Positions 156-39,212 of a DNA stretch of 64,000 nt are shown in pieces. Source of the DNA: a virus; the IMG/VR virus record IMGVR_UViG_3300029908_000007, positions 98,309-162,308 of that record; one strand, 5' to 3'. Every line of letters begins with the position of its first letter. Position 1 is the first letter of the stretch. Both the position numbers and the translations under genes were made by a program. The notes below the pieces were generated by a model. The model did no database searches, had not been told where the DNA came from, and saw only the letters and a list, made by a program, of their open reading frames with translations.

Positions 156-168
156 TAAAGATTGCGAT
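156..168 (-). promoter_or_regulatory. Intergenic 13-mer motif copy (ATCGCAATCTTTA)
   Basis: An exact copy of a 13-mer that recurs at 7933-7945, 21366-21378 and 39200-39212. Here it lies in the 42-bp gap upstream of the fibre gene starting at 128, 26 nt before the ribosome binding site and start codon region ends. It could be a promoter or operator element for phage structural genes. The function is inferred only from its recurrence and position. Confidence 0.45.
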
Positions 169-170
169 TT

Positions 171-1220
171 CTACTGGTAAGCCGCTAATTGCCATGCCAG
201 CCTATAATTTGAGGATCCAGTTGGTACATTCCAGTTCACCGTAAAAGTCGATATAGTTTTTGCGGTGATTGTAACTGGTTGAAATTGTGGAGAAATATCT
301 GTATAATTGGTAAGCTCTGCTATGACCACGTAATTTGTAGATAATAGCGCTAAGGGGAAGGTAATAGTGATCGATGTTTGACCCGATCCTACAATTGATT
401 CCCCGGATTGTTCCGAAAGTCCTGGCGAAATCGCGTAGTCCAGGTAATAATTCCCGTCCGGAATAAGTTGATTCCATTCAAAAGTCGCGGTAGTCGTGGT
501 TTTATTTGTAACAGTAAGTGGGAAAAATTCAGGATTGGGATCGGTTGAATTATAAATACCGCCCAAGATAACATAGGAACTACTACTTTGTGGACTCAAA
601 AATGTAACTACTTGACTGGTTGTTCCCATAGTTAGTGGAACTTCCTGCGCGGTTCCTCCGCCGCTTCCCGAGCCCGAACCAGATCCATAAAACATGGTGA
701 TCGCGCTTTGAACAACGTTTTGGATGGTACCACCCATATTGTGAAGCGTGACATACCCAAAAGGTTGGGTTTGTGATTGTGGGGCTGGAACCAGAGCGTC
801 GGCTAATACCGCATTTGGGGTACCGATAACTACGGCGATATCATTGCTTTCATCGATAGCTAATAGAATTTGAACGTAATCTCCGGAAGGTAAAGTGAGT
901 GGGATTGATCCTCCCGTAGAGGTGACAATATTTCCACCAGATGAAGCGGGGAAGGTCACGGTTCCACCCGTAAAGACCGGAACTACGGTACCTAAAAAAG
1001 AAGCCGATTTATTTCTGCCTGAGACGGAATTTGCAACTAGAGAAGGACCGATATTGACTACAAGAGAGGGACTAGACGTGGCGTCAATTTTAAATGGAGG
1101 GGTTAGATCTTGATCAATAGAAGATAGTAAAACGTCAAGAGTATTTCCTGAAACCCAAGGAAATAGTTCTTGTAAGATGCCACGATACTCGCTTTGTCTA
1201 GAATCTATGGGTTTATACAT
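171..1220 (-). CDS. Tail fibre / receptor-binding protein with two C-terminal H-type-lectin-like domains
   Basis: A 349-aa structural protein. The N-terminal ~170 residues are beta-rich (attachment and shaft). A flexible GSGSGSGSGGG linker follows at about 180-190, then two tandem ~75-residue beta domains (about 190-270 and 275-349). The domains share the pattern V-x-F...Y-V...F-P-x-T-x-T...F-x-W...Y-x-L-x-W, which resembles H-type lectin folds and suggests sugar binding at the fibre tip. The same C-terminal domain ends the next gene (1242-2006). A TGATATA motif sits 12 nt before the start. The lectin assignment is by eye. Confidence 0.7.
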   Translation of the reverse strand: MYKPIDSRQSEYRGILQELFPWVSGNTLDVLLSSIDQDLTPPFKIDATSSPSLVVNIGPSLVANSVSGRNKSASFLGTVVPVFTGGTVTFPASSGGNIVTSTGGSIPLTLPSGDYVQILLAIDESNDIAVVIGTPNAVLADALVPAPQSQTQPFGYVTLHNMGGTIQNVVQSAITMFYGSGSGSGSGGGTAQEVPLTMGTTSQVVTFLSPQSSSSYVILGGIYNSTDPNPEFFPLTVTNKTTTTATFEWNQLIPDGNYYLDYAISPGLSEQSGESIVGSGQTSITITFPLALLSTNYVVIAELTNYTDISPQFQPVTITAKTISTFTVNWNVPTGSSNYRLAWQLAAYQ

Positions 1221-1241
1221 ATCAATCTCTATATATCATAA

Positions 1242-2006
1242 CTAGTTGTTTGCAATAGCGTGCCAGACCAAAGAATAGTTTGCTGTTGCGGTCGGACTAT
1301 TCCATTTAACCGTAAAGCCCGTGGTACTAAAAGCAGTAATTTCAATAGGTTGAAACTGAGTGTTGGTGTCAGTGGTGTTAATGAAATTACATGTGATGGC
1401 ATAACTTGTATTAGCAAAAGCCGTGCTGTAAGTAACGGAAACCGTGGTAACACCGCTGCCAATGGCCTGTGTTCCCGATCTATAAGTAATAGCGGTTGCA
1501 TTGGTTGCACTATATGCGGCATCCCATGCAGCTGCGGTATTAACTGACGTCGAGGTACAAGTAAATATACACTGAGTTCCAGCCGCCATCACTTGAACGC
1601 TAGCACTTGTAGAAGTCTGAACAGTTACTGAGCCCGTGGAACGATTCATTATCTGATAGGCTTGACCCACAACTAAAGTTGAGGTACTTGGCAAAGTAAC
1701 GGTTTGTGTTGTGGTTCCTGTGAATTGCTGATAATATGTACTTGATACCGATAAAGTCGTAGTACTGGCAGCGGTAGCAGTAGTTGTAAAGCCCTCACTT
1801 ATATTATTGATCTGTGTATTAGCGTTGGTATCCCTAAACATTACCGTAGAAGCCGTAGGAGCTGCTACAAGACTTACCGCACTAGGTGTGGTGGAGCTGC
1901 CACTGATATTAGCTAAGACCGTGGCAGTGGCGATCGACGGCAAATCCGTCAACGCCATCGCCGTGCCTCTTAGTGCTCCACTTACTGGTTTTGTAAAATT
2001 TGACAT
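1242..2006 (-). CDS. Tail fibre protein with C-terminal H-type-lectin-like domain
   Basis: A 254-aa Thr/Ser-rich fibre protein. The first ~60 residues are low complexity. A central domain (~85-165) has an alternating pattern typical of phage fibre beta-domains. The last ~75 residues, ending YSLVWHAIANN, align by eye with the two C-terminal domains of the neighbouring 171-1220 protein (shared FQPIEIT/FQPVTIT and F-T-V-x-W). It probably forms a fibre tip or adaptor. Its start follows AAGG and a TGATATA motif 11 nt upstream. Confidence 0.65.
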   Translation of the reverse strand: MSNFTKPVSGALRGTAMALTDLPSIATATVLANISGSSTTPSAVSLVAAPTASTVMFRDTNANTQINNISEGFTTTATAASTTTLSVSSTYYQQFTGTTTQTVTLPSTSTLVVGQAYQIMNRSTGSVTVQTSTSASVQVMAAGTQCIFTCTSTSVNTAAAWDAAYSATNATAITYRSGTQAIGSGVTTVSVTYSTAFANTSYAITCNFINTTDTNTQFQPIEITAFSTTGFTVKWNSPTATANYSLVWHAIANN

Positions 2007-2031
2007 CCTTACTTTCTATATCATGAACCTA

Positions 2032-4404
2032 TTAGTTGACTCCGACTACTTGCGCGTCAACCCAGATATTGTTAGCATCTTTTACTTGACCCACTCTTAC
2101 GATAGCCAGTCCCGAAGACGATGGCGCCGTTGAAGTACAAGCACCGGAGCTACCTAAGTAAAGTGGCGCTCCCGTGGTGAATCCATGGCTTGGTACATTG
2201 ATGATACCAAATTCGGTTACGGTTACCGACTGACCTTGAGAAACACCGGAACCAGGATAGGCCAAACCGATAACGTAAAAATTGTCTGTTGTAGCAGCGT
2301 TGTTGTCGGCTTTCCACATTCTGCCCACGGTCGAACCGCCATCGGTTGACAACGCGTATCTCAAAGCGTACAGCGTAGAAGCGGTAAGCGATTGATCCGA
2401 GGTTTCCGTCGTGGTTGTAGCAGTGCTAACTGTTGAGGGCGTCGCCCATGCCGCAGTGCCTCCGGAGACCGTCAATACCTGTCCCGTAGACCCAATTGCA
2501 AGATTGGTTGCGGAATTGCTGCCGTTGCCAACGATCAAATCGCCAGTCGCTGTGATTGGAGATAATGCGTTAAAAGCCGCTGATTTTGTTGTCTGACCGG
2601 TGCCGCCGTTTGCTATTGCAATTGTAGTTCCAGTCCATGTACCAGACGTAATAGTTCCAACCGAGGTCAGACTGGAACTTACTACCGTACTGTTCAGCGT
2701 GGTTCCAGAAAGCGTTCCGGCTGGAGCCACAACTGCGTTTCCGGTAATGGAAGTTACCAAACCTTTTGCATTAATAGTAACAGCTGGAATGCTGGTAGAA
2801 GAACCCGTGGTACCAGCGGTAGCAACTGTTGCCAATGTAAGAACGGATCCAGAAGTTGTGGCGTCGCCGCTTAGAGCAGCAGCTGCAGTAACCAACCCTT
2901 TTCCGTTTACAGTTACTGAAGCAAATGTTCCCGTATTAGAATTTACAGTTGCAAGAGTAAGAGCTGCAGAGCCCGGTCCGGAAGCCGTTGCGTCCCCGGT
3001 CAATGCTGTGATATAGTTTCCAGCGGCTTGTTTTCCGTTGAAAGTATTCCAGTCCGTTGAAGACAGATATCCGTTTGTAGAGGTATTTGACTGAGTAATG
3101 CTAACGGTGTTTCCAGATAACGACAGGGGAGCGTTGAAAGTATAAGACGTAGGTCCTGCGAACTCCGTAAACATTGGAGTAGAAGAAGATCCGAATACAT
3201 GATTTGCTACAAAAGCGCTGTCAGCGTATACGGTACCATTTAAAATTAACCACGCATCGCCTATTGCGGTAGGTAGTCCGTTTGAAGTCAGGACATAAGC
3301 GGTACCAATCCCACTTGCGGTGTATTCACCGCTTGTAGTTGCTACGGTTTGGTTTCCGAGAATAACTAAATCACCGTTCTGAACCGAATATCCGTCGATG
3401 GTAAGAGTTGCCCCACCAGTCAAAGGTACGTTGCTAGCAGCGTAGGCTTTAGCCGGACCTTGCCATGTTAATCCACTAATCGCGGCATCAACATATCCTT
3501 TTGTAGCCGCATCTGTTGAGGTGGAAGGAGCTGCAAGACCGTTAATCTGATTGCTTCCCATGTTCAGGGCTTGTGCTTGCGTACCCAACGAAGTCAGGGA
3601 AGATGCGGTAACCGTAGAATTCAGAGTGGTTCCAGAAAGTGTGCCAGCAGGTGCTACAACCGCGTTACCAGTAACAGAGGTTACCAATCCCTTAACGTTG
3701 ATGGTGATAGAAGGAATGCTAGTAGAAGAACCTGTGGTTCCAGCAGTTGCGACAGTTGCGAGTGTCAAAGCACCGGAACTTGCAATAGTTGCATCACCGG
3801 ACATCGCAACAGCTGCGGGCTGATTTGAACCGTTTCCAACATAGATATCGTTAGTCGCCAAAGGTAACATTTGGGCGGCTGTAATCGTGCCAGACAACTG
3901 AGAGGTCGGAAGACTTAATGCGGAAAGCGTGGTTAGCGTAGAATTAGAACTTGCTGTAATATTAGAGGCAGTTCCCGTAATGCTCCCGCTCGGGATTACA
4001 TAATCGGTTCCAGCAACAGCGGCACTGATTGCGGTTCCATTACCCTTTAAAAGTCCGGTAATAGTTGTGGTTAGAGTTAGAGCAGGAGTAGATCCTCCAG
4101 AAGAAGTCCCCGCAAATCCGTTGGCAGTATTTACGGAAACCGATGTAACGCTACCAGAAGCAGAAGCGATCCAACTCAGATTACCGCTGCCATCATTTGC
4201 CAAAACGTAGTTTGATCCACCGGCTTGCGCGGCAGGCCAAACAACGGAATACGTCGTGGTCGTGGAATGCGCGGCTTGTGTAAAAGATCCGCCGCCAGTT
4301 GCGGCATTGATCTGAAGACCTTGTACGCTAAGAGTGTTAGTTGAAAGATCAACTGTTCTTGGTACGGCGGAGATAAGTTCTAAAATTTTGCTATAAGTTG
4401 CCAT
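2032..4404 (-). CDS. Long tail fibre protein with internal repeats
   Basis: A 790-aa Ser/Thr/Gly/Val-rich protein with internally duplicated modules. Blocks containing GTTGSSTSIP, KGLVTS and APAGTLSGTTLNS occur twice (about residues 215-270 and 515-580). Near residue 300 the segment DAATKGYVDAAI resembles the shaft repeat of many phage fibres. The last ~90 residues form a compact domain resembling the downstream 4418-4873 protein (a decoration-like beta fold). It probably trimerises as a side or long tail fibre. Two long antisense open frames inside it are composition artefacts. Confidence 0.7.
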   Translation of the reverse strand: MATYSKILELISAVPRTVDLSTNTLSVQGLQINAATGGGSFTQAAHSTTTTYSVVWPAAQAGGSNYVLANDGSGNLSWIASASGSVTSVSVNTANGFAGTSSGGSTPALTLTTTITGLLKGNGTAISAAVAGTDYVIPSGSITGTASNITASSNSTLTTLSALSLPTSQLSGTITAAQMLPLATNDIYVGNGSNQPAAVAMSGDATIASSGALTLATVATAGTTGSSTSIPSITINVKGLVTSVTGNAVVAPAGTLSGTTLNSTVTASSLTSLGTQAQALNMGSNQINGLAAPSTSTDAATKGYVDAAISGLTWQGPAKAYAASNVPLTGGATLTIDGYSVQNGDLVILGNQTVATTSGEYTASGIGTAYVLTSNGLPTAIGDAWLILNGTVYADSAFVANHVFGSSSTPMFTEFAGPTSYTFNAPLSLSGNTVSITQSNTSTNGYLSSTDWNTFNGKQAAGNYITALTGDATASGPGSAALTLATVNSNTGTFASVTVNGKGLVTAAAALSGDATTSGSVLTLATVATAGTTGSSTSIPAVTINAKGLVTSITGNAVVAPAGTLSGTTLNSTVVSSSLTSVGTITSGTWTGTTIAIANGGTGQTTKSAAFNALSPITATGDLIVGNGSNSATNLAIGSTGQVLTVSGGTAAWATPSTVSTATTTTETSDQSLTASTLYALRYALSTDGGSTVGRMWKADNNAATTDNFYVIGLAYPGSGVSQGQSVTVTEFGIINVPSHGFTTGAPLYLGSSGACTSTAPSSSGLAIVRVGQVKDANNIWVDAQVVGVN

Positions 4405-4417
4405 GATTTACTCCTAA

Positions 4418-4873
4418 TTAAAGTTGACCGATTAGTTGTGGAATTATTACCAAATCTTGCTGTAAACTGTTTGTTTCGTTTTGCACAATTATTCCCACGT
4501 AATAGACGAAGTCGCCGGGACCAAAACCTGTAACACCGTCATCAGGGCGCGTGTTCTGGATGGTACCACTCAGACCAATCCAAATAGCCTGTCCTATCGC
4601 AAATCCGTAGGTAAGAGAAAGATTTAAAAGTCTGCCGTTGCTGATCACTGGCCCGTTGGCATTACCGGGAATTCTGAACTGAGCAATGCCAACAAATGCG
4701 CTAACCGAAGCCTGCGAGGTGACATCGGTGGGCGCGATCATGTCTTGTGTGCCAGTAGAGCTGACAGGGGTTCCTTGAGGAATTGCGGTACCACTATTAT
4801 TGGTATAGTTAGACACAATTCCAGTGGAACTTGCGGTACTTTGCTGACTAAAGAAAAATGGACTATAAGTCAA
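4418..4873 (-). CDS. Small fibre-associated or decoration-like structural protein
   Basis: A 151-aa protein with a Ser/Thr-rich N-terminus, then a domain containing GTAIPQGTPV, FVGIAQ, NGRLLNLSL and GQAIWIGLSG. This order (early Gly-Pro turn, Val-Gly-Ile-Ala, then a Gly-Gln-x-I-W strand) resembles DUF2190-like/decoration folds and the C-terminal domain of the adjacent 790-aa fibre. It lies in the fibre operon, 13 bp from the next gene. A fibre accessory or tip role is inferred. Confidence 0.55.
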   Translation of the reverse strand: MTYSPFFFSQQSTASSTGIVSNYTNNSGTAIPQGTPVSSTGTQDMIAPTDVTSQASVSAFVGIAQFRIPGNANGPVISNGRLLNLSLTYGFAIGQAIWIGLSGTIQNTRPDDGVTGFGPGDFVYYVGIIVQNETNSLQQDLVIIPQLIGQL

Positions 4874-4888
4874 AGTTAGCTCCCAAAG

Positions 4889-7861
4889 TTATAAAATATA
4901 CCAAGCTGATCCCGAACTGACCACGGTTACGGTTTGCCATTGCGAAGACAATAGAAAAGTATTGCTGCCATCTATCAATTCCGACCCATTGGCCATAATC
5001 GTTAAAACATTTGCGCTGGAATCGATCTTCTTCATAAAAAAGATTCTTCCAACACCAGTGGCTGCGGTTGGAAGAGATAGTGTAAATGCTCCACCGGTGC
5101 AATCGCCTAAAATTACAAAGTCTGTAGACATTAGGGTATATGGACCGGTTTTCGTAGAAACTGATACCGCGTTTCCAAATGCGTTGGTTCCAGCAGGCCC
5201 TGCGGGACCAGTAGGACCAGTAGGACCTTCGGGTCCGATTTCGCCCAGACTCCCACCATTACCGGCAAAACGAAACTGAAGTTCGTCGCCAACAACTAAT
5301 CCGCCACCGGGAAAACTAACGATTTGAATTTCATTACTAGGAGCGCCAGAGGCCCCGACTTCAGCATAGGCTCCGCTTTCAACGTCTAAAAACTGACCAT
5401 TAAGAAGAACTTGTAGTGTTCCTTTGCCCACGGTATAATATTGCGTTGCGTTGGCTTCTCTGCTATTATTTGGAAGATGAATGAAACCGCCATTGGCAAC
5501 GGGTCCGTTTATAGAGACCGGAGAATTTAAAGAAGGAGGATATGTTCCACCGGAAGCGACGACATCAACGGTCTCATCGTATGTTGGGGAATCCAATGAA
5601 CTTAGAATGATTCCAACGTCTTCATCAAGTTTTTTAATACCCAATGTTAGATTATCGCCGTCTTGAATAGCAAAGTTTCCACTACCAGTTCCGGCCTGTG
5701 TGGCAGAAATTGCAAACGGAGCACCCACATTAACGTTAGCCGGTGAATTGGTAAGACCGGCGCTGTTATTGGTAACGGTAATAACATTACTAATTGCGGT
5801 TGCGGTGAAATCTTTTCTGCTTGTGGAATTGAGAAGAGTGGTCAACGTAGTTGCGGTTTGAGCAGCGGTTTGTCCAGTGGTTACAATCCATTCCAAAGAA
5901 ATCGCATTTGCGATTGGCATTGGATCCACGCCGGTTCCATCTTTGTTTACCCAAACATAGTACTGTATAAGACTAACGGAAGGAAAAATTTCAAAATACT
6001 GATTAGAAGCCATCGAAGCCGCGCTACCGGTTGTAATGCTAACGATCTGTGGAAGAACTAAAGGTCCTCCGCCTTCCCACATTTGATATGTAGAAACATA
6101 GGCTGGAGCGGTGGCGCTTTCAATTGGGCTACCGGTGTAGGTAAGTAGGTTTTGAATTTGAGGACCACTGACGTTTTCGCTGACGCCATATGATAAATCC
6201 ATTCCTAACCAACGAATATAAACTCTAGGTAAGGCGCCGCCGTCATCGTTTCTAGCTAGCAACCACCAAGTATTCGATGCAATCGGTACGCTTGCACGTG
6301 GTACGATTTGAATATCTCTGGAATTACCACTAACACCGGGTAATGTATATTCTCCCCAAGCATATTGAGAAGCCGCTCCGCTAGCCCCCGTAGAAGTTCC
6401 ACCATAAGTAGAAGTCAATGTGACTTGTGAAACAGAATTAACTGTCAAAATCTGATAATAGGCGGCATGACTTGCTGAAGCTATTTTGATCCAATCACCA
6501 GCAAGTACAGCGGACGTCCAGGCCACACTGCCTACGGAACTAACTACAGCAGAAGCATTGGTCCAAATAAGATCTGGGGAGATTGCGGCGTCGCGAGTAA
6601 GTTCTAAATAAGCGACTTCACCATCGGTCAGAGTTACTGTGCTACCCGTAGGATTTGCTTGGATCTGATATTCTAAATTAGAACCTATTACTTTAAAATT
6701 TAAAACGTTGGACCAATTAATTTGGCCCGGTTGCGTTGCCACAGGATTTGTAAATGAAACCGTGGTTCCAGTTACAGTATCTGAGGCTTCGTTGGACATG
6801 ACAACCGTGGAACCACTAATAGAAAGAACCGTGGTGCCAGCGATAAAAGCTTCGCCACTGATATACTGACCACTGGCTATTCCTGTTGTGGAAGCCAGAC
6901 TGGTAATTTGGTTGCTGCCTAGGGTAACGTTACCGGTAGTCGTGAGAATTGGTGTGGTATCGGGAATCACACCGTGACTGATGTTACCATTACTGGTTAA
7001 GATGGTATTAACAGCGTCTTCTCTAAGTTGAGGTACACTGCCACCCGGACTTGGACCGGTCCCAAAAAACGAATACCAATAGGGTCCGCCGCCTAAATCT
7101 AGGAAGCCCGACATCACAGCGTTCATCCAATCCTTGAGATCGGTGATGGCTTTGTCTCCACCGTAAAACGGATTGCTGCCGTTTGTGGTAGTTACTGGTG
7201 GATTTTCTGAAGTCCCTTCCGGCCAACTATAGACATTGAACGGATTAGGATTGGCGCCGCCTGTTCCTAAGCGAAACAGTAGGGGCCTGGAATCTGTTAT
7301 GGAAACCACGTTGTTGCCGCTATCGGTAAGAATTACGGCAATGGGAAGAATGTTGGAAGCCCAAACCGTAGATGTGATTACGAATTCGTAGTTTAGGATG
7401 ATCGCTGCGGGATCAATTGTGGAATCTTGTTGGCTCGTTGAAGGATCCCAAAGCGCACGTTGTACGTCGGTTGTGGGATCTTGGAAGCGATAGTAATCGA
7501 TGCCAACATAGTTATTGGTGCCTGGAACGAAGGCGCCGCTGACATTTGACACAATCGCAGCATTTAGGGTAACAGCGGGGGTTCCAGCTGGAACCAAATA
7601 TATGGTACCTGACTGAGACGCGGTGACGTGCATGAGGGCGCCAGCGCTAACGATTACCTGTAGGTTTGAGGCGGCGCCACCGATGGGGTTGGTGGCCATG
7701 TTTAACGCGAAGCCGTTGATGATATAGGGGTTACCGGCTCCGGTCACGAATGCTTCAAAAGACGTGTCAAAGTCAGCACTTACAGCGGATTCAACAGCCT
7801 TTAGATCAGGCACGTCAACTCTCATCTGACTTAAATAATTTTCGCGGCGCTGAATAGCCAT
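4889..7861 (-). CDS. Large tail fibre/baseplate-attached fibre protein with a short collagen-like segment
   Basis: I start this gene at the internal ATG at 7859-7861 (MAIQRRENYL, 990 aa). It follows GAGGG, and the upstream extension would cross promoter motifs. The N-terminal ~100 residues look like the baseplate-attachment domain of long fibres. The centre is a series of Thr/Ser-rich beta modules. Near residue 895 there is a collagen-like G-x-y run (GPEGPTGPTGPAGPAG), a known trimerising neck, followed by a ~90-residue C-terminal tip domain (LGDCTGGAFTLSLP). It is first in the fibre gene run. Confidence 0.75.
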   Translation of the reverse strand: MAIQRRENYLSQMRVDVPDLKAVESAVSADFDTSFEAFVTGAGNPYIINGFALNMATNPIGGAASNLQVIVSAGALMHVTASQSGTIYLVPAGTPAVTLNAAIVSNVSGAFVPGTNNYVGIDYYRFQDPTTDVQRALWDPSTSQQDSTIDPAAIILNYEFVITSTVWASNILPIAVILTDSGNNVVSITDSRPLLFRLGTGGANPNPFNVYSWPEGTSENPPVTTTNGSNPFYGGDKAITDLKDWMNAVMSGFLDLGGGPYWYSFFGTGPSPGGSVPQLREDAVNTILTSNGNISHGVIPDTTPILTTTGNVTLGSNQITSLASTTGIASGQYISGEAFIAGTTVLSISGSTVVMSNEASDTVTGTTVSFTNPVATQPGQINWSNVLNFKVIGSNLEYQIQANPTGSTVTLTDGEVAYLELTRDAAISPDLIWTNASAVVSSVGSVAWTSAVLAGDWIKIASASHAAYYQILTVNSVSQVTLTSTYGGTSTGASGAASQYAWGEYTLPGVSGNSRDIQIVPRASVPIASNTWWLLARNDDGGALPRVYIRWLGMDLSYGVSENVSGPQIQNLLTYTGSPIESATAPAYVSTYQMWEGGGPLVLPQIVSITTGSAASMASNQYFEIFPSVSLIQYYVWVNKDGTGVDPMPIANAISLEWIVTTGQTAAQTATTLTTLLNSTSRKDFTATAISNVITVTNNSAGLTNSPANVNVGAPFAISATQAGTGSGNFAIQDGDNLTLGIKKLDEDVGIILSSLDSPTYDETVDVVASGGTYPPSLNSPVSINGPVANGGFIHLPNNSREANATQYYTVGKGTLQVLLNGQFLDVESGAYAEVGASGAPSNEIQIVSFPGGGLVVGDELQFRFAGNGGSLGEIGPEGPTGPTGPAGPAGTNAFGNAVSVSTKTGPYTLMSTDFVILGDCTGGAFTLSLPTAATGVGRIFFMKKIDSSANVLTIMANGSELIDGSNTFLLSSQWQTVTVVSSGSAWYIL

Positions 7862-7888
7862 TAAATGCCCTCTGGAATGGATCCTAGG

Positions 7889-7957
7889 TAAAGATTGTTG
7901 TTTAACTGACACCCCTATTATATCATATTGACATCGCAATCTTTACTGTGATATAGT
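7889..7957. promoter_or_regulatory. Divergent regulatory region with two AATCTTTAC motifs and back-to-back promoters
   Basis: The plus strand carries TTGACA (7928-7933), an 18-bp spacer and TATAGT (7952-7957) before the gene at 7981; the 13-mer ATCGCAATCTTTA fills the spacer. The minus strand carries TATAAT (7917-7922, within TGATATAAT) upstream of the fibre gene starting at 7861, and a second core motif AATCTTTACC (about 7887-7896) lies between that -10 and the start. The arrangement looks like a controlled divergent promoter; the motif could be an operator. Confidence 0.55.
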
Positions 7958-7980
7958 CTAAAGTGAAGAGGTGCGCTACA

Positions 7981-8364
7981 GTGGGAAAAAGTAAGCGAAC
8001 AGATAGATCGTTCACTAGAGAGCAGCGATTATCTAAAGAAAACAGGCAGTTAAAGAAAGAGTTGGCTCACCTAAGAAAACAGATAGCCCGTCTGGATCTG
8101 GATCGGTTCGAGACTCTCAGACAAATGGTAGCCGACCATGAGGAAAGCAAGCGTTTTGAAGAAAGTGCTGTAGAAGCCAACTCAAATATAGAGGCTTTGA
8201 AGCGTGATTGGGCATGTCATGAATGCGACAACGGTTTTTTAGAGATTGTTTTGTATTCAAAGATGGGGACTACGCAATACTACAGGAAATGCAATAACTG
8301 CACCAATCGTACCAAGGGTAAGCGTTACGAAGAAACTGTGAAGGGAATCCTAAAGAATGATTGA
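7981..8364 (+). CDS. Small coiled-coil zinc-ribbon protein
   Basis: I prefer the GTG at 7981, nine bases after AAGAGG; an upstream in-frame GTG at 7963 lies almost on the predicted transcription start. The ~127-aa product has a charged helical N-terminus (coiled coil around 15-60), then a Cys pair CHEC and a second pair CNNC about 25 residues later, a zinc-ribbon pattern. It may bind nucleic acid. It is a plus-strand insert in the minus-strand tail operon and overlaps the next gene by 8 bp. Confidence 0.6.
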   Translation: MGKSKRTDRSFTREQRLSKENRQLKKELAHLRKQIARLDLDRFETLRQMVADHEESKRFEESAVEANSNIEALKRDWACHECDNGFLEIVLYSKMGTTQYYRKCNNCTNRTKGKRYEETVKGILKND

Positions 8365-8584
8365 AGGCGACGTTGTTATTTGTGCCACTTCTCAGGCCGG
8401 TAGTATTGTTCAAATCGATGGCAAAAATGTTTGGGTATTGTTAAGAAATCACGATATTTGGACTGGCCTCTTAAGTCAAACCTACAAACCGCAATCCAAA
8501 GAACATCTGGATGCCTGTCCCATAGATGTCGCCAGGGTAGAGGCTAAACGCACAATCCGTGAAGACAGCGGATACGAAGACTAA
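8357..8584 (+). CDS. Small beta-barrel (KOW/SH3-like) protein, unknown role
   Basis: A 75-aa product beginning MIEGDVVICA with GSIVQIDGKNVWVLL. This strand-turn-strand pattern (G-D-V-V ... G-x-I-x-x-I-x-G-x-x-V-W-V) is typical of KOW/SH3-like barrels. It overlaps the zinc-ribbon gene by 8 bp, so the two are probably translated together. Its stop overlaps the convergent minus-strand gene by 3 bp. No specific function is assigned. Confidence 0.6.
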   Translation: MIEGDVVICATSQAGSIVQIDGKNVWVLLRNHDIWTGLLSQTYKPQSKEHLDACPIDVARVEAKRTIREDSGYED

Positions 8585-9333
8585 TCCACCCACCACTTCG
8601 AATATGGGTTATTATTTAGCCCTTGCGGACTGTAATAAATCGAAGTCACAGACTTCATGGGATCCGCGCCATAGTATTTCTTCAATCTCCAAAACCAAAC
8701 CTTACTTGCTAACCAACACCATAGACTAGTCTTTTTTAGGTTATTTTGAATCGTCCAGGTAAGCTGTCTGGTATTGGTATCCATGACGTTTTCCGACATA
8801 TTGGAAATCGCGATGGCTAGCGCGGAAAAAACGAACAATGGATGACACATCCAGCGAATCCAGCAATGCAAGGGATTGATTAGAGATGGAAATGCCGCCG
8901 AAATCATCGCGGTAAGAAGTGCGGGTTGTCTGATTAAAAAAGCCTGCCATTGCCACTTGCCGGGCTGCGGATTATAGAAAGAGCCTTTATATTTGATACA
9001 ACCCCAAAGTAATTTACGGGGGATTTCCGTGTTTCCCAATTCAATGCATGCGCTTACTGTGCCATAATAGTCATCTGGGCCATTGAGTCCGTCATTTTGT
9101 CCAACAGGAACTCTATTGAGTAGGTTGGAACCAATACACTGATTGATTTTGGCGGCGTAGTCTATTTTGTCTTGATCGGTAAGTTGTCCGTTTTTGTTTA
9201 ATAATATATAATAGATGGAAGTAAAAAGATTTCCATTGTCAGAGCCGCTTTGTCCGGGTTGCCACGTACCTGGATTTGGGGTGTTTAAATTGTTTCCATC
9301 AATGTACGTGGAAAAATCCTGTCTTATCGTCAT
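8581..9333 (-). CDS. Conserved-looking phage protein of unknown function
   Basis: A 250-aa protein with a TWQPGQ segment near residue 23 and many aromatic residues (clusters around 145-165 and 205-235, including SLWCWLASKVWFW). It has hydrophobic stretches at about 140-180 but no clear signal peptide. It lies between the fibre and baseplate genes, so a virion-associated role is possible. The AATCTTTAC motif core lies 6 nt before the start codon. I do not recognise a family. Confidence 0.55.
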   Translation of the reverse strand: MTIRQDFSTYIDGNNLNTPNPGTWQPGQSGSDNGNLFTSIYYILLNKNGQLTDQDKIDYAAKINQCIGSNLLNRVPVGQNDGLNGPDDYYGTVSACIELGNTEIPRKLLWGCIKYKGSFYNPQPGKWQWQAFLIRQPALLTAMISAAFPSLINPLHCWIRWMCHPLFVFSALAIAISNMSENVMDTNTRQLTWTIQNNLKKTSLWCWLASKVWFWRLKKYYGADPMKSVTSIYYSPQGLNNNPYSKWWVD

Positions 9334-9338
9334 ATTAG

Positions 9339-9346
9339 TAAAGATT
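9339..9346 (-). promoter_or_regulatory. AATCTTTA motif core upstream of the 9333 gene
   Basis: The 8-mer core of the recurrent intergenic motif, ending 6 nt before the minus-strand start codon at 9333. The spacing is similar to that at 39200-39212. No Shine-Dalgarno sequence is visible between the motif and the ATG. Confidence 0.35.
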
Positions 9347-9355
9347 GTTTTTAGC

Positions 9356-9382
9356 TTGACTTCTGCCGCAATACCATATAGG
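9356..9382 (+). promoter_or_regulatory. Candidate promoter for the lysozyme gene (15-bp spacer)
   Basis: TTGACT at 9356-9361, a 15-bp spacer, then TATAGG at 9377-9382. The lysozyme ATG at 9403 follows with GGAGG 8 nt upstream. The short spacer matches several other candidate promoters in this window. Confidence 0.45.
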
Positions 9383-9402
9383 GTATTTGGTGGAGGATAG
9401 CT

Positions 9403-9834
9403 ATGACCTATCTACAAATCATAACTGCTGCTGCCAAAGCAGCTAAGGTGAGCGCAATACTTCTGTATTCGATCTGTTCTCACGAGAGTCGCAATTTCGA
9501 ACTCGACTATTCTCTATATGACTCCGGATCTCCGAGTTATAGTGTTTGCCAAATAAAAGAAACCACAGCAATTCAGATGGGATGGCAAGGAAAAAATCCC
9601 ATGGAACTTCGAGATCCCCATGTTGGCATTAAATTTGCAGCGCTTTATCTGAGATATCAGCAAGACCGCTATGGCTCGGGGGATTGGGTTAAGTTGGCAA
9701 GCGCTTACAATGCGGGAAGCTATTCCGAAGGTAGAGTTAGAGGATGTCCCAAAAATCTAGGCTATATTAAATTGGTAAAGGAAAAGCTGCCCAAGAACCT
9801 AAGATATAAACTTAGCTGCGGTCCAAGGCCATAA
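9403..9834 (+). CDS. SLT-type lytic transglycosylase (phage lysozyme/endolysin)
   Basis: A 143-aa single-domain enzyme predicted to cleave peptidoglycan glycan strands. The SLT/goose-lysozyme motifs are in order: the catalytic Glu in SHES (E28), the S-Y-S-V-C-Q-I-K strand (~50-57), ELRDPHVGIKFAALYL (helix ~72-87) and AYNAG (~103-107). There is no signal peptide, so export would need a holin or delivery by the virion. GGAGG precedes the ATG. It is a plus-strand gene in the tail module whose 3' end overlaps the convergent tube-like gene by 23 bp. It could be the endolysin or a virion muralytic enzyme. Confidence 0.85.
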   Translation: MTYLQIITAAAKAAKVSAILLYSICSHESRNFELDYSLYDSGSPSYSVCQIKETTAIQMGWQGKNPMELRDPHVGIKFAALYLRYQQDRYGSGDWVKLASAYNAGSYSEGRVRGCPKNLGYIKLVKEKLPKNLRYKLSCGPRP

Positions 9835-10237
9835 GAGGAATCATTCCTTTAAAGGAAAAGTTCAGTTTATATGTGCCGGTAGCAGGGATGGAATGATTTT
9901 CACTAACTACTTTACACTGAGGAATAAAGAGAATATCTTCAGAAGTAGAGCGATCCGTAACTCTCAAACTCACATAAGGATTTGCAGAAACATCGGTGAA
10001 TAGTGGACGCAAGTTTTTAGCCTGAAGTCCACCTGAGTTTTTGATGCGAAATCCGCTTACGTTTCCGCTCACCGTTACTTTTCCACCTGCGATTTCTTGG
10101 CTATAGGCGCTGTCAATTCCGAAAATCTCCTCTTCGCCGTAATCGATGCCAAAACTAACATCGGCAACTTCTTTATAAAGTTGATTATTCCAAAAAATCG
10201 TGATTTGCGCTCCGGTGATTACAACTGGTAGTGACAT
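9812..10237 (-). CDS. Tail-tube-like / baseplate tube-initiator protein
   Basis: A 141-aa beta-rich protein starting MSLPVVITGAQITIFW. Features include FGIDYGEEEIFGID and GGKVTVSGNVSGFRIK. The repeated strand pattern and the small size resemble phage tail-tube or tube-initiator folds. It lies 2 bp downstream of a baseplate wedge gene and is probably co-transcribed with it. A tube role is inferred from fold-like pattern and context. Confidence 0.5.
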   Translation of the reverse strand: MSLPVVITGAQITIFWNNQLYKEVADVSFGIDYGEEEIFGIDSAYSQEIAGGKVTVSGNVSGFRIKNSGGLQAKNLRPLFTDVSANPYVSLRVTDRSTSEDILFIPQCKVVSENHSIPATGTYKLNFSFKGMIPLMALDRS

Positions 10238-10238
10238 A

Positions 10239-12173: not shown

Positions 12174-12174
12174 A

Positions 12175-28431: not shown

Positions 28432-28479
28432 TTCAATACCTTAGCGGTTTGGTCTTTAAATACTAAAAGACCATATAGG

Positions 28480-28519
28480 TAAAGATTCCAATCTTTGACC
28501 CTACCCCGGCGTTATATCA
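28480..28519 (-). promoter_or_regulatory. Control region of the tape-measure operon: palindromic AAAGATTCCAATCTTT and TGATATA
   Basis: AAAGATTCCAATCTTT (28481-28496) is a perfect 16-bp inverted repeat built from two facing copies of the recurrent core. TGATATAAC (minus strand, 28513-28519) lies 16 bp upstream of it. A -10-like element followed by a dyad looks like a promoter with an operator just downstream, before the tape-measure start at 28431. Confidence 0.5.
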
Positions 28520-28709: not shown

Positions 28710-28898
28710 TTACTTGGTCTCCCCTAATTGCTTTACCAGCTTTGCTTTCTGGCCCACAAATACCTGGTCGAGATCGCTGCCGTCGCCTTTGATATTGCGT
28801 TCGGTGTATGAAATTAGTTTCTTAATGTACAGGCGTTCCGAGCTTTCTTTTTTCATTTTCTTCGCTTTCTTTTTGCTACCGGTCTGTTTTTTTGCCAT
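28710..28898 (-). CDS. Small Lys-rich protein, unknown function
   Basis: A 62-aa very basic protein (MAKKQTGSKKKAKKMKKESS) with a helical C-terminal half. It overlaps the 3' end of the endonuclease VII-like gene by 46 bp. AGGAG precedes the start. It could bind nucleic acid. Confidence 0.5.
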   Translation of the reverse strand: MAKKQTGSKKKAKKMKKESSERLYIKKLISYTERNIKGDGSDLDQVFVGQKAKLVKQLGETK

Positions 28899-29740
28899 GT
28901 TGTATCAGTGCTCCTATTGTTATTTAGGTATTCTATAGCTTTTAACATTAAGTCTTGTGAATCGCTAAAATGTCCTAAACCTCTATTGCATTTGTCACAC
29001 AGAAGGCCTCTGATTAAACCAGTCTTATGGTCGTGGTCTACAGACATACGCTTTTTAAAATCTTTTTGGTCTATTTTACATATAGCGCATTTTCCATCCT
29101 GTTGTCTCAAAAAATCTTCAAAATCTTCTAAATTTATTCCATAAGTAGATCTCAATTGACTATTTTTATATTGATGGGGTTTCTTTTTCCTTCTTTCATT
29201 ATCTTGCATTCTTACTCTCTCTATATTGTTCTTTTTCCAGTTATCCGGGGTTCCCAACTGACAATCTATACAAAAAGGTCTAGCGCCATCTTTAGTTCTT
29301 TTACTCGGATAAAATTCTGATAATTTTTTAGTTATTTTACATTTAAAGCAATTTTTAAGTCCTTCTAAAAAAAGAGGATTGTGGGGATGTTTGAAGCTTT
29401 TACCGAAAGGATTTTTAGAACGCATTAAGGTTTTGTCCATATGCGCCGTAGCCTCTTCTAGCCATCCATTTCTGCCAGCGATAACTGGAGCAGATGGGGA
29501 CTCTCTTTCCCAATCAGACGGTCTGTCAAATCTTTTAGCGTCTTCCATTATTTTTTCTTTAATCCAATATCCATTGGGTTTCTTTTTGGGTTTCATATGC
29601 GCTGTCAGTTCTGGTAACCACCCATTTATTCTGGATTTATCGTAAGCGTGTTTAGACTCCAACTTCCAGGCGCTCTTAGAATTAAATCTCAGAGCGTCCT
29701 CTCTACATTTTTCTTTAGTCCAATATCCCCAATTTTTCAT
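28853..29740 (-). CDS. Recombination endonuclease VII-like HNH nuclease with N-terminal repeat modules
   Basis: A 295-aa protein. Two ~45-residue modules (about 5-49 and 56-101) share GYW-x-KEK, a basic helix and NGWL-x-E-x-TAHM, known from phage homing nucleases. Then a Cys4 zinc element (CFKCK ... CIDC, ~136-160). The C-terminal domain LRSTYGINLEDFEDFLRQQ, CAICK, VDHDHKTG and LLCDKCN is the endonuclease VII (T4 gp49-type) ββα-metal nuclease. It may be a mobile endonuclease rather than the Holliday-junction resolvase. Its ATG lies one base after the PagL-like stop. Confidence 0.75.
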   Translation of the reverse strand: MKNWGYWTKEKCREDALRFNSKSAWKLESKHAYDKSRINGWLPELTAHMKPKKKPNGYWIKEKIMEDAKRFDRPSDWERESPSAPVIAGRNGWLEEATAHMDKTLMRSKNPFGKSFKHPHNPLFLEGLKNCFKCKITKKLSEFYPSKRTKDGARPFCIDCQLGTPDNWKKNNIERVRMQDNERRKKKPHQYKNSQLRSTYGINLEDFEDFLRQQDGKCAICKIDQKDFKKRMSVDHDHKTGLIRGLLCDKCNRGLGHFSDSQDLMLKAIEYLNNNRSTDTTWQKNRPVAKRKRRK

Positions 29741-32099: not shown

Positions 32100-32243
32100 T
32101 CAGCGTTTCATATTTTGATGATTGACAACATCTCGTCGACAGAAACTGGGATCGGTGTCGTCATTCCCAGTACAGACGAGCTTCCCATCAGTAGAACAAG
32201 CGCTTAAAGCAATCATGGCAATTAAAATCATTAGCAGTTTCAT
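32100..32243 (-). CDS. Tiny lipoprotein
   Basis: A 47-aa product with a textbook lipoprotein signal: MKLLMILIAMIALSAC, lipobox LSAC, mature part about 32 residues with two further Cys. AAGGGG lies 5 bases before the ATG, and the ATG overlaps the stop of the upstream gene (ATGA). Size and signal recall the outer-membrane spanin Rz1, but the mature part is not Pro-rich and no inner-membrane spanin partner is evident. An outer-membrane lipoprotein of unknown role. Confidence 0.6.
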   Translation of the reverse strand: MKLLMILIAMIALSACSTDGKLVCTGNDDTDPSFCRRDVVNHQNMKR

Positions 32244-32614
32244 AGTTTCCCCTTTGTTAGTAGACCGTTTACAATCAAATCTTTAAAGTATTTTACAGGC
32301 AATCTTCGGACCTGAGTTCTCTTCCGCCAGTTCCCGAGATCGTATGGGTGTGTGGGAACGTCTCTGCAGAAAATTTCAGAATTACAAACGTAATGGGTGA
32401 AGCCGGGTCCAGCATACTCTAGGATGGTTAGACGAAAGCCGTCTTCGCTCGGGACTGGAGAATATACGGGGTCTCCATTTTTATTAGTTAGGCCGTGAAG
32501 AACGAATTCGATGTTATTTCCTAAAACAAAGAAAAGAACGTCGCCGTAATAGATGTCTCCGGGTTTAGGGGGACTAAGGACAAGTTTTGCGCGTCTAAGG
32601 GCTTCAACGATCAT
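32240..32614 (-). CDS. Hypothetical protein
   Basis: A 124-aa protein starting MIVEALRRAKLVLSPP. It has a beta-rich centre (YYGDVLFFVLGNNIEFVLHG) and FTHYVCNSEIFC. A strong candidate promoter lies just upstream (32623-32649), predicting a transcript that starts about two bases before the ATG. No family recognised. Confidence 0.55.
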   Translation of the reverse strand: MIVEALRRAKLVLSPPKPGDIYYGDVLFFVLGNNIEFVLHGLTNKNGDPVYSPVPSEDGFRLTILEYAGPGFTHYVCNSEIFCRDVPTHPYDLGNWRKRTQVRRLPVKYFKDLIVNGLLTKGKL

Positions 32615-33520: not shown

Positions 33521-33745
33521 TCAACCGTTCCAACGCCAAAATGGAGCCTTGTTTCCCTTTTCAGGAAAGGGAGGACATCCGAGGTAGCCGTCAATTTTGT
33601 CCTTCGCTACATCTTTAAAAAACAAATTTTTATCTTTACACTTTTCACACTTAAGATCTTTTAGACTGCTCTGATCATAGACGGTCTTGTAGATGGTGTG
33701 ATCACAGTAAGAGCAGATTACTTTAATTTCCACGAGCGCCCTCAC
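33521..33745 (-). CDS. Small zinc-ribbon protein
   Basis: A 74-aa protein with CSYC near residue 11 and CEKC about 20 residues later, a zinc-ribbon pattern, then a hydrophobic tail. It overlaps the upstream gene by 23 bp. Probably nucleic-acid or protein binding; role unknown. Confidence 0.6.
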   Translation of the reverse strand: MRALVEIKVICSYCDHTIYKTVYDQSSLKDLKCEKCKDKNLFFKDVAKDKIDGYLGCPPFPEKGNKAPFWRWNG

Positions 33746-34064
33746 TAATGCTCTTGAGAGTTCTCAGTATGATAAGGCCCAGTCTATCAACCAACTCTCT
33801 ATAAGCGGCATCGGCATCTGTGTGTTCTTTGATCTTGTGGTCGAAATAACCAGGATAGGCTTTTTCCGCTTTCTCCAGAAGTGTGGCGCCTTTGTCTTCA
33901 TCACCCATGGCGTACCAGTCGTGGGCCATGCAAATCATGGATTTTGCTATAATGGCGGGCTCTAGCTTAGTATTGCCATCAACATTATCTTCTATTTTGA
34001 GCAGTTCTTCGATAAGATCGCGATGTTCTTGGGGAATATCACCATGTAGATTGTGTCTGCTCAT
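33723..34064 (-). CDS. Hypothetical helical protein
   Basis: A 113-aa protein starting MSRHNLHGDIPQEHRDLIEELL, all-alpha, with a TPR-like stretch (WYAMGDEDKGATLLEKAEKAYPGYFD). It follows the ribonucleotide reductase in the same direction. Between them lies a stem CCTCAAGG/CCTGAGG with an AATCTTTACC core (34080-34087), perhaps a terminator or attenuator. Confidence 0.55.
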   Translation of the reverse strand: MSRHNLHGDIPQEHRDLIEELLKIEDNVDGNTKLEPAIIAKSMICMAHDWYAMGDEDKGATLLEKAEKAYPGYFDHKIKEHTDADAAYRELVDRLGLIILRTLKSISEGARGN

Positions 34065-34073: not shown

Positions 34074-34103
34074 CTCAGGTAAAGATTAAGCCTTGAGGAA
34101 AGA
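34074..34103 (-). terminator. Stem-loop carrying an AATCTTTACC core, downstream of the reductase gene
   Basis: On the minus strand CCTCAAGGCTT and CCTGAGGCC can pair across a loop that contains the recurrent AATCTTTACC core. It lies in the 55-bp gap between the reductase stop and the next start. It could be a terminator or attenuator, or another copy of the regulatory motif; there is no strong T run. Confidence 0.35.
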
Positions 34104-38408: not shown

Positions 38409-38428
38409 TGAAATACCCTCTTAAGAAG

Positions 38429-38457
38429 GATATATCACGGCGAATCTAGGAAGTCAA
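38429..38457 (-). promoter_or_regulatory. Promoter TTGACT-17-TATATC overlapping a TGATATA motif
   Basis: On the minus strand TTGACT (38452-38457), 17 bp, TATATC (38429-38434). It points at the gene starting at 38408; the predicted leader is about 14 nt and contains GAGGG. This is one of the clearer sigma70-like promoters here and overlaps the recurrent TGATATA. Confidence 0.5.
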
Positions 38458-38469
38458 GGATTATTTAGA

Positions 38470-39195
38470 TTATGGCCAGGGATAGTACGGCCATTGCGGA
38501 TAGACCGGAGTGGAGCGCCAGGTAATGAGGATCCTGGGAGGAGCGGGGAATTGCTGTGGGCTGCCCCAAGGTCCGGAGTAGTCTAAAACGTTACCGTAGT
38601 TTATTAAATTATACGGGTAGCCGCCGTAAAAAGCTCCAAAACCTGGTAGAGTGAACGGCTCATAACTGACGGGATACCCGTTATAGCTTTTCTGCGTTAT
38701 ACTGAAAGTGAAGCCTAAGCTCGTGAAATAATTGCCTAAACTCGCGATCGGCAGATGCGGCAATACATCAAACCAAGCCTGAAATAAGCCTAACTCATTA
38801 TTATTGCTTATAATCTGGTTGGCGCCGTCGATAAAGTTTTTAGCAGCAATGGCTTGAAGATCGGTGAGACCAGTCGCTGAAGCCTGATTCGCCAGTGGGG
38901 CTACGATTGGGATGTCTTCAATGGCTATAATAACCGTACAATAATGCACACTTGAGTCGGTTTGGGTGACACCGATGACGACTGAGGTGGGCGGAATTAC
39001 ACCGCCCGCAGTCCCGCTTATAACGCCCGTGGTTGGATCTAAAACGAGTCCTGAAGGCAAAGTGCCACCGGTAACCGCATATGGCGTTCCAGAGGTCCCT
39101 GGGAAGGGTGTAATGGTCACTGTCTGGCCGGGCTGCCATATACTGGGGTTACTTGAATAGCGTAGGACGGAAAAAGGGTAGATTGGCGTAGTCAT
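38470..39195 (-). CDS. Probable virion protein with an Ig-like (He_PIG/cadherin-like) domain
   Basis: A 241-aa protein. Residues ~22-95 contain GTLPSGLVLDPTTGVISGTA, the signature of putative Ig/He_PIG modules common on phage and bacterial surfaces. The C-terminal half is rich in Tyr, Pro and Gly (FGAFYGGYPYNLINYG). An exact 13-mer motif lies 5 bases upstream of the start, as for the tail genes, supporting late structural expression. It may decorate the particle. Confidence 0.55.
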   Translation of the reverse strand: MTTPIYPFSVLRYSSNPSIWQPGQTVTITPFPGTSGTPYAVTGGTLPSGLVLDPTTGVISGTAGGVIPPTSVVIGVTQTDSSVHYCTVIIAIEDIPIVAPLANQASATGLTDLQAIAAKNFIDGANQIISNNNELGLFQAWFDVLPHLPIASLGNYFTSLGFTFSITQKSYNGYPVSYEPFTLPGFGAFYGGYPYNLINYGNVLDYSGPWGSPQQFPAPPRILITWRSTPVYPQWPYYPWP

Positions 39196-39199
39196 GTAC

Positions 39200-39212
39200 T
39201 AAAGATTGCGAT
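39200..39212 (-). promoter_or_regulatory. Intergenic 13-mer motif copy
   Basis: ATCGCAATCTTTA on the minus strand, ending 5 nt before the ATG of the Ig-like protein. This is the fourth exact copy in the window and the only one in the accessory half. No Shine-Dalgarno sequence lies between the motif and the start codon. Confidence 0.45.

Follow-up and report, generated by a model that had tools for sequence, protein, structure and literature searches.

A conserved AATCTT box before virion genes as a putative −10-only late promoter element in a lineage of uncultured contractile-tailed phages

A repeated word in the gaps before virion genes

The window analyzed here is a stretch of 64,000 nucleotides (positions 98,309 to 162,308 of the 162,308-base IMG/VR virus record IMGVR_UViG_3300029908_000007) that includes a baseplate assembly gene and further tail-region genes, with a short word recurring in the gaps before them. 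Four exact copies of the 13-mer ATCGCAATCTTTA lie at 156–168 (− strand), 7933–7945 (+), 21366–21378 (−) and 39200–39212 (−), exactly as a preliminary description of this DNA had them, and neither the window nor the whole record holds a fifth. Its statement that such recurrence is almost nil by chance also stands: a third-order Markov model of the genome predicts 0.014 copies per whole genome, although the case weakens when up to two mismatches are allowed (seven matches against 2.51 expected, with seven reached in one of 100 shuffles). Outside three tandem-repeat arrays, ATCGCAATCTTTA, taken with its reverse complement, is the sole 13-mer with at least four copies in the window. The 8-mer AATCTTTA, whose core is AATCTT, has 12 copies in the window against 4.87 expected, a number reached in none of 100 shuffles. 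Ten of these had been listed, all present and all between genes; two were omitted, one at 11144–11151 (−) within the coding sequence 10239–12173 and one at 32278–32285 (+), antisense within the coding sequence 32240–32614, and both genic copies are probably due to chance.

Eight putative late −10 boxes lie on the minus strand upstream of open reading frames (ORFs), at 4–48 nt from the end of the 8-mer to the ATG, where about seven at 5–60 nt had been proposed. The first (156–163, in the 13-mer at 156–168), whose first A is 35 nt from the ATG, would serve a conserved 816-aa ORF that continues past the left edge of the window, and that at 7889–7896 precedes a 990-aa ORF homologous to the gene at 139197 of Myxococcus phage Mx1, with AATCTT upstream in the orthologous gaps of six of nine genomes (the present one, G000, counted). 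At 9339–9346, the first A is 13 nt from the ATG of a 250-aa ORF (8581–9333), which is predicted to be leaderless. The candidate at 21366–21373, in the 13-mer ending at 21378, precedes the baseplate assembly gene (18707–21352); that at 23161–23168, 21 nt from first A to ATG, precedes a 180-aa ORF (22605–23147); and that at 28480–28487 heads the tail-region genes 26245–28431, 24371–26245 and 23439–24374, its orthologous gaps having AATCTT upstream in six of eight genomes (G000 counted). A further putative box at 34080–34087 has its first A 23 nt from the ATG of a 113-aa ORF (33723–34064), and the last, at 39200–39207 in the fourth 13-mer, has its first A exactly 12 nt from the ATG of a 241-aa ORF (38470–39195) with an Ig-like (He_PIG) match, again predicted to be leaderless. 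One exact 13-mer, that at 7933, is on the plus strand; its putative box (7938–7945, +), divergent from that at 7889, is followed after 17 nt by the GTG that opens a 133-aa frame, and AATCTT recurs at 23–41 nt in all four other orthologous gaps examined. The remaining listed copy of AATCTTTA, at 57945–57952 (−), exists but sits in a non-coding stretch with no ORF start within 120 nt.

Over the 162-kb record, with 212 genes called, no 8-mer is more enriched in upstream positions than AATCTTTA, which precedes 18 genes against 0.65 expected (about 1e-19). It is not equally common inside genes, a frequency that the preliminary description had singled out for checking: 22 of its 29 genome copies are intergenic and seven are in genes, while the non-coding fraction is 11.5% of the genome, this figure and the gene starts both resting on our own gene caller. 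Among the compared genomes, AATCTT precedes genes of the virion blocks in 83 of 273 gene–genome cells and genes of the replication block in 4 of 176 (p = 6e-16; this and the other p-values are optimistic, the genomes being related to one another). The core is mostly missing before the major capsid gene and before the two genes that precede it (0/7, 1/7 and 0/6 genomes), and the tail sheath gene has it in two of eight genomes, both times 101–110 nt upstream and inside the preceding ORF; variant boxes or other promoters must therefore serve these genes.

Conservation and register of the box

Related phages carry the motif in their orthologous gaps, the other check that had been named. Either AATCTTTA or CAATCTTA is among the ten best upstream 8-mers in each of the genomes G001 to G006, and the box word lies upstream of five genes in the fragment G007. 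Orthologous gaps keep AATCTT in 57 of 88 cases, against a mean of 9.6% and a maximum of 29% for 41 letter permutations, and at gaps where G000 lacks the core, 31 of 355 orthologues carry it. The gap before the baseplate gene has AATCTT in 24 of 25 orthologous loci, some of them near-duplicates of each other or of the window (25 of 27 loci were taken in; L016 and L036 were left out). The 13-mer was considered as the unit and rejected: its ATCGC prefix stands before four copies here, one in G001 and none in seven other genomes. The conserved unit is the 8-bp AATCTT(T/A)A, not the 13-mer.

For positions 1–20000 of the window, no relative was found among named phages at the nucleotide level, and a search of named phages with the baseplate protein returned one record, Mx1 (OR576727). 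Mx1 has homologous virion genes, many of them preceded by the core, and a homologous sigma gene. In a hand-picked set, 13 of 27 plus-strand genes have AATCTT no more than 80 nt away, and none of seven minus-strand genes does; Mx1 differs in its 55% GC content and in that the bases after AATCTT are free. Its box was seen by inspecting gaps and in the pooled offset test described below, the top words of the upstream-word search in Mx1 being others, without AATCTT among them. The available portions of the Mx1 genome announcement (PMC10720576) make no mention of promoters.

The position of the box relative to start codons was examined in an annotation-free test, in which an ATG was counted if it opened a frame of at least 80 codons. 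Of 1,545 AATCTT words in nine genomes, 28 have such an ATG at offset 12, against a background of 5.75 per offset, and all nine genomes contribute to this spike. The best of 59 other permutations of AATCTT reaches 8, and the eight hexamers more enriched at this offset are all Shine–Dalgarno-like. A held-out set of 14 loci yielded only three ATG frames at offset 12, and 73 sigma loci, which are poor in virion genes, yielded five without a clear peak. Chance or base composition, for which the mismatch-tolerant count of the 13-mer could be cited, is refuted by the enrichment, permutation and orthologue controls and by phage T4, where an ATG frame stands at offset 12 in 2 of 259 AATCTT words with no spike; we give this explanation practically no weight.

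Leaderless spacing is found in 26 of 135 boxes, about one fifth, the RNA 5′ ends being predicted from sequence. Among leader-class boxes, an A stands at +12 in 69 of 112, compared with 358 of 1309 genic copies (p = 7e-13), and a Shine–Dalgarno sequence accompanies 84 of 109 leader sites and 5 of 26 leaderless-spaced sites. TGATATA boxes have an identical 12-nt peak when counted from their TATA. The strand specificity of the box, and an offset that could equal a cutting distance, would also suit an RNA-level element, either a leader or an endonuclease site cut 12 nt downstream to give leaderless mRNAs; this is most improbable, as the register is identical to that of the TGATATA promoter class, the word is nearly missing before replication genes, and Rfam finds no RNA family at gathering score in the window.

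In the pooled 135 sites, no position between −44 and −29 exceeds 0.2 bits, and TTGAC occurs there in three. The 26 leaderless sites by themselves, a small sample, have T-rich positions −37 and −36 (0.47 and 0.41 bits) that the 109 leader sites do not show. The AATCTT box is without a general −35 partner. A few boxes do lie near TTGAC, either directly after it (window 7933, record 53165 and record 25594) or, as TTGACA, about 18 nt downstream of it (window 34080), which would be compatible with an operator at which a phage activator or repressor binds near late promoters. Such an operator is nonetheless very unlikely: leaderless ATGs and the +12 A of leader promoters both keep a constant 12-nt distance from the box, the 135 sites show no further word at a fixed distance, and AATCTT(T/A)A is not palindromic.

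The phage sigma factor and the proposed promoter

A sigma70-family gene lies at 63421–64476 of the record, about 34 kb left of the window, and encodes 351 aa. Its product matches PHROG 351 (E = 1.9e-9), and a profile of 52 homologues matches RpoD and SigA with E values of 1e-9 to 1e-8, the RpoD match (E = 9.8e-10) ending at residue 570 of 617. The AF2 model aligns with residues 90–565 of E. coli sigma70, and Foldseek ranks sigma factors first among its matches (E = 3.8e-5), with VIA-align reaching Z = 13.2, so that profile, Foldseek and VIA-align together place it in the sigma70 family by region 2 homology and fold. The Pfam model of sigma region 2 (PF04542) has no match in G000 at E ≤ 10 and gives 19.5 bits in Mx1, below its 24-bit cut-off. 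Regions 1.2, 2, 3 and 4.1 are kept, and the protein stops short of region 4.2, which reads the −35 element; the C terminus lies near region 4.1 in all 75 homologues examined (75 of 80 loci, with L131, L159, L161, L167 and L177 left out). The phage sigma seems to have lost part of the usual DNA-reading equipment. No separate Sigma70_r4 match passes the cut-off in eight genomes, with sub-threshold matches in four. The sigma gene is found in eight of nine genomes, the ninth being a 60-kb fragment, and has 106 relatives in IMG/VR. An RNA polymerase beta subunit was matched in none of eight genomes (control positive in 14 of 14), and the single-subunit RNA polymerase family gave no match, its controls being silent too.

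The computed evidence comprises, for the box, its enrichment and conservation, its strand and register, the +1 signature and the class of genes that it precedes, and, for the sigma factor, its homology and its truncation. On this evidence the box is highly likely to be a late promoter −10 element that works without a −35 element and would most likely be read by the phage sigma, and the repeated word is very probably an on-switch for particle genes. AATCTT(T/A)A would be the −10 element of the lineage's late promoters, with AATCTT at −12 to −7, and transcription would start mostly at the A 12 nt (sometimes 13 nt) downstream of the first A of the box. Where the A of the start codon falls at +1, the mRNA would be leaderless; otherwise it would have a leader, mostly with a Shine–Dalgarno sequence. 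We infer an RNA start at this place and a host core polymerase at work, most likely steered to the box by the phage sigma, as well as late timing, because the genes served are virion genes. Among the roles of promoter, operator or leader offered by the preliminary description, the first is borne out by the placement of the word before virion-gene operons, its near-absence before replication genes and its −10 register, which the other two fit less well.

Sigma and box are linked here because they co-occur and because the loss of the −35 element matches that of region 4.2. A link of this kind leaves room for the late −10 element being read instead by a host sigma, or by a sigma70 remodeled by a phage protein, and a host is identified for Mx1 alone among the compared genomes. 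We regard this as unlikely: the AATCTT core and the phage sigma are both retained across genomes of 33–55% GC, and there is already a host-like promoter class, with TAnnnT at a 17-nt spacer in 14 of the 26 CTTGAC words that lie between genes.

Comparison with T4 and with leaderless bacterial promoters

Among phages with their own sigma factor, late promoters have been well studied chiefly in T4 and in a few phages of Gram-positive bacteria. The T4 late promoter word is TATAAATA. It is read by gp55, a very small relative of sigma domain 2, with the co-activators gp33 and the sliding clamp gp45, as the available portions of two sources describe (PMC2988020; PMC7892883). Like T4 as those accounts describe it, the present phages have a −10-type word of 8 bp ahead of their virion genes without −35 conservation, and their diverged sigma, which lacks a −35-reading domain, would likewise work with the host core polymerase. 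They differ in the word (AATCTTTA, an octamer at −12 to −5, as against TATAAATA starting at −13), in the sigma (351 aa with regions 1.2–4.1, as against the very small domain 2 relative gp55) and in leaderless spacing (26 of 135 boxes here, none of the 23 upstream sites in T4). Run as a yardstick, T4 favors an A at 13–14 nt from the first T; the upstream-word search on T4 did not place its known late word among the ten best 8-mers. The sigma profile aligns with gp55 over 29 residues (3.2 bits; E = 0.0059 in a three-protein search). Among the called proteins of all nine genomes, phmmer found no match to gp55 at E ≤ 10, and it found none to gp33 or gp45. Neither a gp45-type nor a beta-clamp match passes the cut-off in eight genomes: PF02767 has one sub-threshold match, in G005, and PF09116 is absent from all eight, the control genomes also falling below its cut-off.

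Leaderless promoters of bacteria use TATAAT-type words. In Deinococcus-Thermus (PMC12340547) and mycobacteria (PMC4633059), according to the available portions of these sources, the −10 region adjoins the ORF, and a −10 box likewise sets the start codon at or near +1; those are host promoters, whereas a phage-specific word before virion genes is found here. In the literature searched, judged mainly by titles and abstracts, no report of the AATCTTTA box was found.

On balance we favor, with some reservation, a large lineage of uncultured contractile-tailed phages, with 106 sigma relatives in IMG/VR, that uses a sigma70 lacking region 4.2 and −10-only AATCTT late promoters, about a fifth of which would give leaderless virion mRNAs. 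This lineage would have come to the T4 solution, late promoters free of a −35 element, along another path, in which a full sigma was trimmed instead of being reduced to sigma2. If true, this would be a second, differently built late-promoter solution beside that of T4 and a natural test of how a sigma works when its −35 domain and, within the searches made, the T4 clamp co-activators are missing. Transcription starts could be predicted with single-base precision, both in uncultured phages and in Mx1, a laboratory phage; sequence alone would suffice to mark late genes and operons throughout a large environmental lineage; and leaderless translation would be tied to phage virion genes.

For the gene adjoining that of the sigma factor, a role as a gp33-like co-activator is not supported. 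The structures nearest to its model are GroES/Cpn10 and T4 gp31, with modest scores (best Foldseek E = 6.3e-3; Z up to 6.3, the first 13 rows all being GroES/Cpn10).

The repeated word and the genes it precedes

The four exact copies of the 13-mer set out in the preliminary description (window 156-168, 7933-7945, 21366-21378 and 39200-39212; three on the minus strand, one on the plus) were recovered, with no further exact copy elsewhere in the 162,308-base record, for which a third-order model gives an expectation of 0.014 copies per genome. Once three tandem arrays are set aside, it is the only 13-mer with four copies in the window. The octamer within it, AATCTTTA (core AATCTT), occurs 12 times in the window compared with 4.87 expected, a number reached in none of 100 shuffles; the ten core sites described earlier are all present, but two more copies, both within genes, had been omitted. 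Of the ten intergenic copies, nine lie a short distance upstream of a same-strand frame of more than 100 aa. The exception, at 57945, has no such frame and falls in a stretch free of called genes (57300-58150; no Rfam match), which may be the remains of a gene or an RNA locus. The units of the tandem repeats at 60644-61021 and 63707-63994 are 18 and 24 bp long, both divisible by three.

The remaining record was retrieved, 212 genes were called with a simple hexamer model (our own calls, with at least three window starts placed otherwise than a closer start check suggests) and enrichment of upstream words was assessed. AATCTTTA is the best-enriched upstream 8-mer (18 genes versus 0.65 expected, p ~1e-19), followed by TATGATAT and ATGATATA, which form a second class. 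Its intergenic preference extends to the whole genome, with 22 of 29 copies between genes though non-coding DNA makes up 11.5% of the sequence. Among the relatives (G001-G007), AATCTTTA is the top 8-mer in G001, AATCTTTA or CAATCTTA ranks in the top ten of each of G002 to G006, and the word lies upstream of five genes in G007, a 60-kb fragment; in Myxococcus phage Mx1, also one of the nine genomes compared, the best words differ from the AATCTT box. Applied to T4, this search leaves TATAAATA out of the ten best 8-mers, and can therefore overlook a true late word. The octamer thus recurs in relatives, but the 13-mer does not stand as the element: it occurs once in G001 and is absent from the seven other genomes, so its ATCGC prefix is local, with C mildly preferred directly before the octamer.

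The box is also kept in orthologous gaps. Across 15 core genes (orthologues in at least five genomes) with AATCTT in the gap in the window's own phage, G000, it is retained in 57 of 88 orthologous gaps, compared with a mean of 9.6% and a maximum of 29% for the 41 letter permutations with enough data, and with 31/355 for gaps in which G000 lacks it; the genomes share kinship, and p-values overstate their independence. Searches that used the baseplate protein (window 18707-21352) as query found 27 IMG/VR loci at 33-100% identity and one named phage, Mx1, at 32%. AATCTT is present upstream of the baseplate gene in 24 of the 25 loci printed (L032 lacks it), which are not all independent, some being near-identical to one another or to the window. 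As an illustration from a hand-chosen gene set, AATCTT lies at most 80 nt upstream of 13/27 plus-strand genes printed for Mx1 (portal, tail, baseplate J, tailspike and others) and of 0/7 minus-strand genes. At Mx1 13002, the putative prohead protease gene is annotated as starting upstream of an AATCTT box; a later ATG, 12 nt from that box, may be the real start.

Virion genes are the main class served. With gene blocks drawn by record position after the annotation had been seen, AATCTT is found upstream in 83/273 gene-genome cells of the virion blocks (38 core genes) versus 4/176 of the replication and nucleotide block (25 core genes; p 6e-16), whereas the reversed word TTCTAA gives 17/273 and 9/176. 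In G000, AATCTTTA precedes 13/66 virion-block and 0/48 replication-block genes, 3/36 in the first 25 kb and 2/62 in the right arm. The box is mostly absent before the tail sheath gene and before the major capsid gene with its scaffold neighbours; AATCTT precedes the major capsid gene (record 25676-27061 and orthologues) in none of seven genomes. A different conserved stretch lies upstream of the gene at record 27972-28442 in G000 and G001. A homing/HNH endonuclease-like gene lies beside the baseplate genes at window 17657-18664, and an endonuclease VII-like gene is at window 28853-29740.

Register of the box relative to start codons

The strongest evidence on mechanism is the register. All 1,545 AATCTT words on both strands of the nine genomes were scored, free of annotation, for ATGs opening a frame of at least 80 codons. 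At offset 12 from the first A there are 28 such frames, compared with 5.75 as the per-offset background; the counts are 0, 2, 2 and 5 at offsets 8 to 11 and 7 at offset 13, offsets 14 to 19 have 2 to 6 each, and a broad rise begins at 20. The intergenic cases come from all nine genomes. At this offset the highest count among the 59 other letter permutations is 8, only eight hexamers are more enriched, all Shine-Dalgarno-like, and T4 gives 2/259. Fourteen held-out virion-gene loci (3 at offset 12, 1 at 13, 1 in total at 14-19, more from 20) suggest the same shape in numbers too small for proof; in sigma loci, poor in virion genes, offset 12 has a count of 5 and no clear peak stands out.

This is the profile that transcription starting 12 nt from the first A would produce, because start codons cannot precede +1, a Shine-Dalgarno is not required when they lie at +1, and there is no room for one at +2 to +8. 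Consistent with this, Shine-Dalgarno-like words accompany 5/26 boxes with a gene start at 11-13 nt and 84/109 with one at 20-110 nt, the latter figure being raised by the gene caller, whose start choice favours them. Independent support comes from the long-leader boxes, where position 12 is A in 69/112 (A or G in ~80%) versus 358/1309 copies within genes (p 7e-13). TGATATA served as an internal yardstick. If it is taken as an extended -10 (TGn-TATA), start codons after it are most frequent 15 nt from the T, a distance of 12 from TATA (21 cases at 15, 14 at 16, 12 at 13). The same distance of 12 would therefore place AATCTT where TATAAT lies, from -12 to -7, retaining A at -11 and T at -7, the two bases captured unpaired by sigma factors. 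In the -35 area of 135 pooled sites, nothing exceeds 0.2 bits and TTGAC occurs in 3; the 26 leaderless sites alone are T-rich at -37 and -36 (0.47 and 0.41 bits), a feature not seen in the 109 others.

The likely reader and the comparison with T4

The likely reader is a 351-aa protein encoded at record 63421-64476, outside the window, which matches PHROG 351 'RNA polymerase sigma factor' (E 1.9e-9) and the Mx1 'putative RNA polymerase sigma factor' WNM70309 (32% identity, E 1e-45). The gene is present in 8/9 genomes, and a profile search of IMG/VR found 106 relatives, 80 of them retained. A profile of 52 homologues aligns with RpoD/SigA from region 2 to region 4.1 (E 1e-9 to 1e-8), ending at about residue 566-570 of 613-617. 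The best Foldseek matches of the AlphaFold2 model (mean pLDDT 84, pTM 0.67) are sigma factors (E 3.8e-5, TM 0.40), and the model aligns with E. coli sigma70 from ~90 to 565 (Z 12-13), with a large r.m.s.d. because domain placing differs. The alignment tool warns that helical models can reach Z of up to ~13 by chance, so the sigma assignment depends on the sequence profile.

All 75 homologues examined stop no more than about 20 residues from the KLRGVTF-stop point of G000, a few of them with variant letters there, so the region 4.2 helix-turn-helix, the -35 reader, is missing; no other gene supplying it was found over the cut-off. The missing -35 reader of the predicted sigma is matched by the missing -35 element of the proposed promoter. 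By eye, in the profile alignment, the sigma70 residues that contact base -12 appear to be replaced in the phage protein, which would suit an A at that position where sigma70 has T. In G000, G001 and G002, a TGATATA box and no AATCTT lies upstream of the sigma gene, the arrangement that a host-to-phage cascade would call for. Eight genomes gave no match to an RNA polymerase beta subunit (control 14/14), and the host core polymerase is therefore the likely partner of the sigma; for single-subunit polymerases the search gave no match either in these genomes or in its controls.

T4 late transcription is described in PMC2988020 and PMC7892883 as using a -10-only word, no -35 and a phage sigma on host polymerase. 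The AATCTT system resembles it in each respect, the sigma and its use of host polymerase being predicted here, but by these comparisons it is not a member of the T4 late class: word and register differ, the match of the sigma profile to T4 gp55 (3.2 bits) does not establish homology, and similarity search found neither gp33 nor gp45. We propose that AATCTT boxes make up a class of phage late promoters that has a sigma factor of its own, trimmed in another way than that of T4.

Directly after the sigma gene, 73/75 sigma loci encode a small protein whose frame in many of them overlaps the sigma stop codon (record 64711-65034, outside the window; L098, a sigma-search locus, 3385-3705). A gp33-like identity is not supported, as its model is nearest the GroES and T4 gp31 co-chaperonins, with modest scores. 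An Mx1 GroEL homologue in the phage lies at record 22376-24142.

Other putative promoter classes

TATGATATA looks like a second, extended -10 class; its boxes occur genome-wide, for example at record 63420, 58448 and 61351, 15-18 nt before the sigma, portal and terminase start codons, and it seems also to give leaderless mRNAs. TGATATA lies upstream of AATCTTTA at three late genes of the window (7889, 21366 and 28480). Fourteen of 26 intergenic CTTGAC words in G000 have TAnnnT at exactly a 17-nt spacer, the layout of ordinary sigma70 promoters, and are probably host-type promoters. AAAATAGTTCTTGAC has three minus-strand copies in the right arm (window 51316, 54286 and 55619). AATCTTTA lies within or beside a host-like TTGAC...TA-type promoter at window 7928-7960 and at record 53154-53193 and 25594, so early and late promoters may overlap at such sites.
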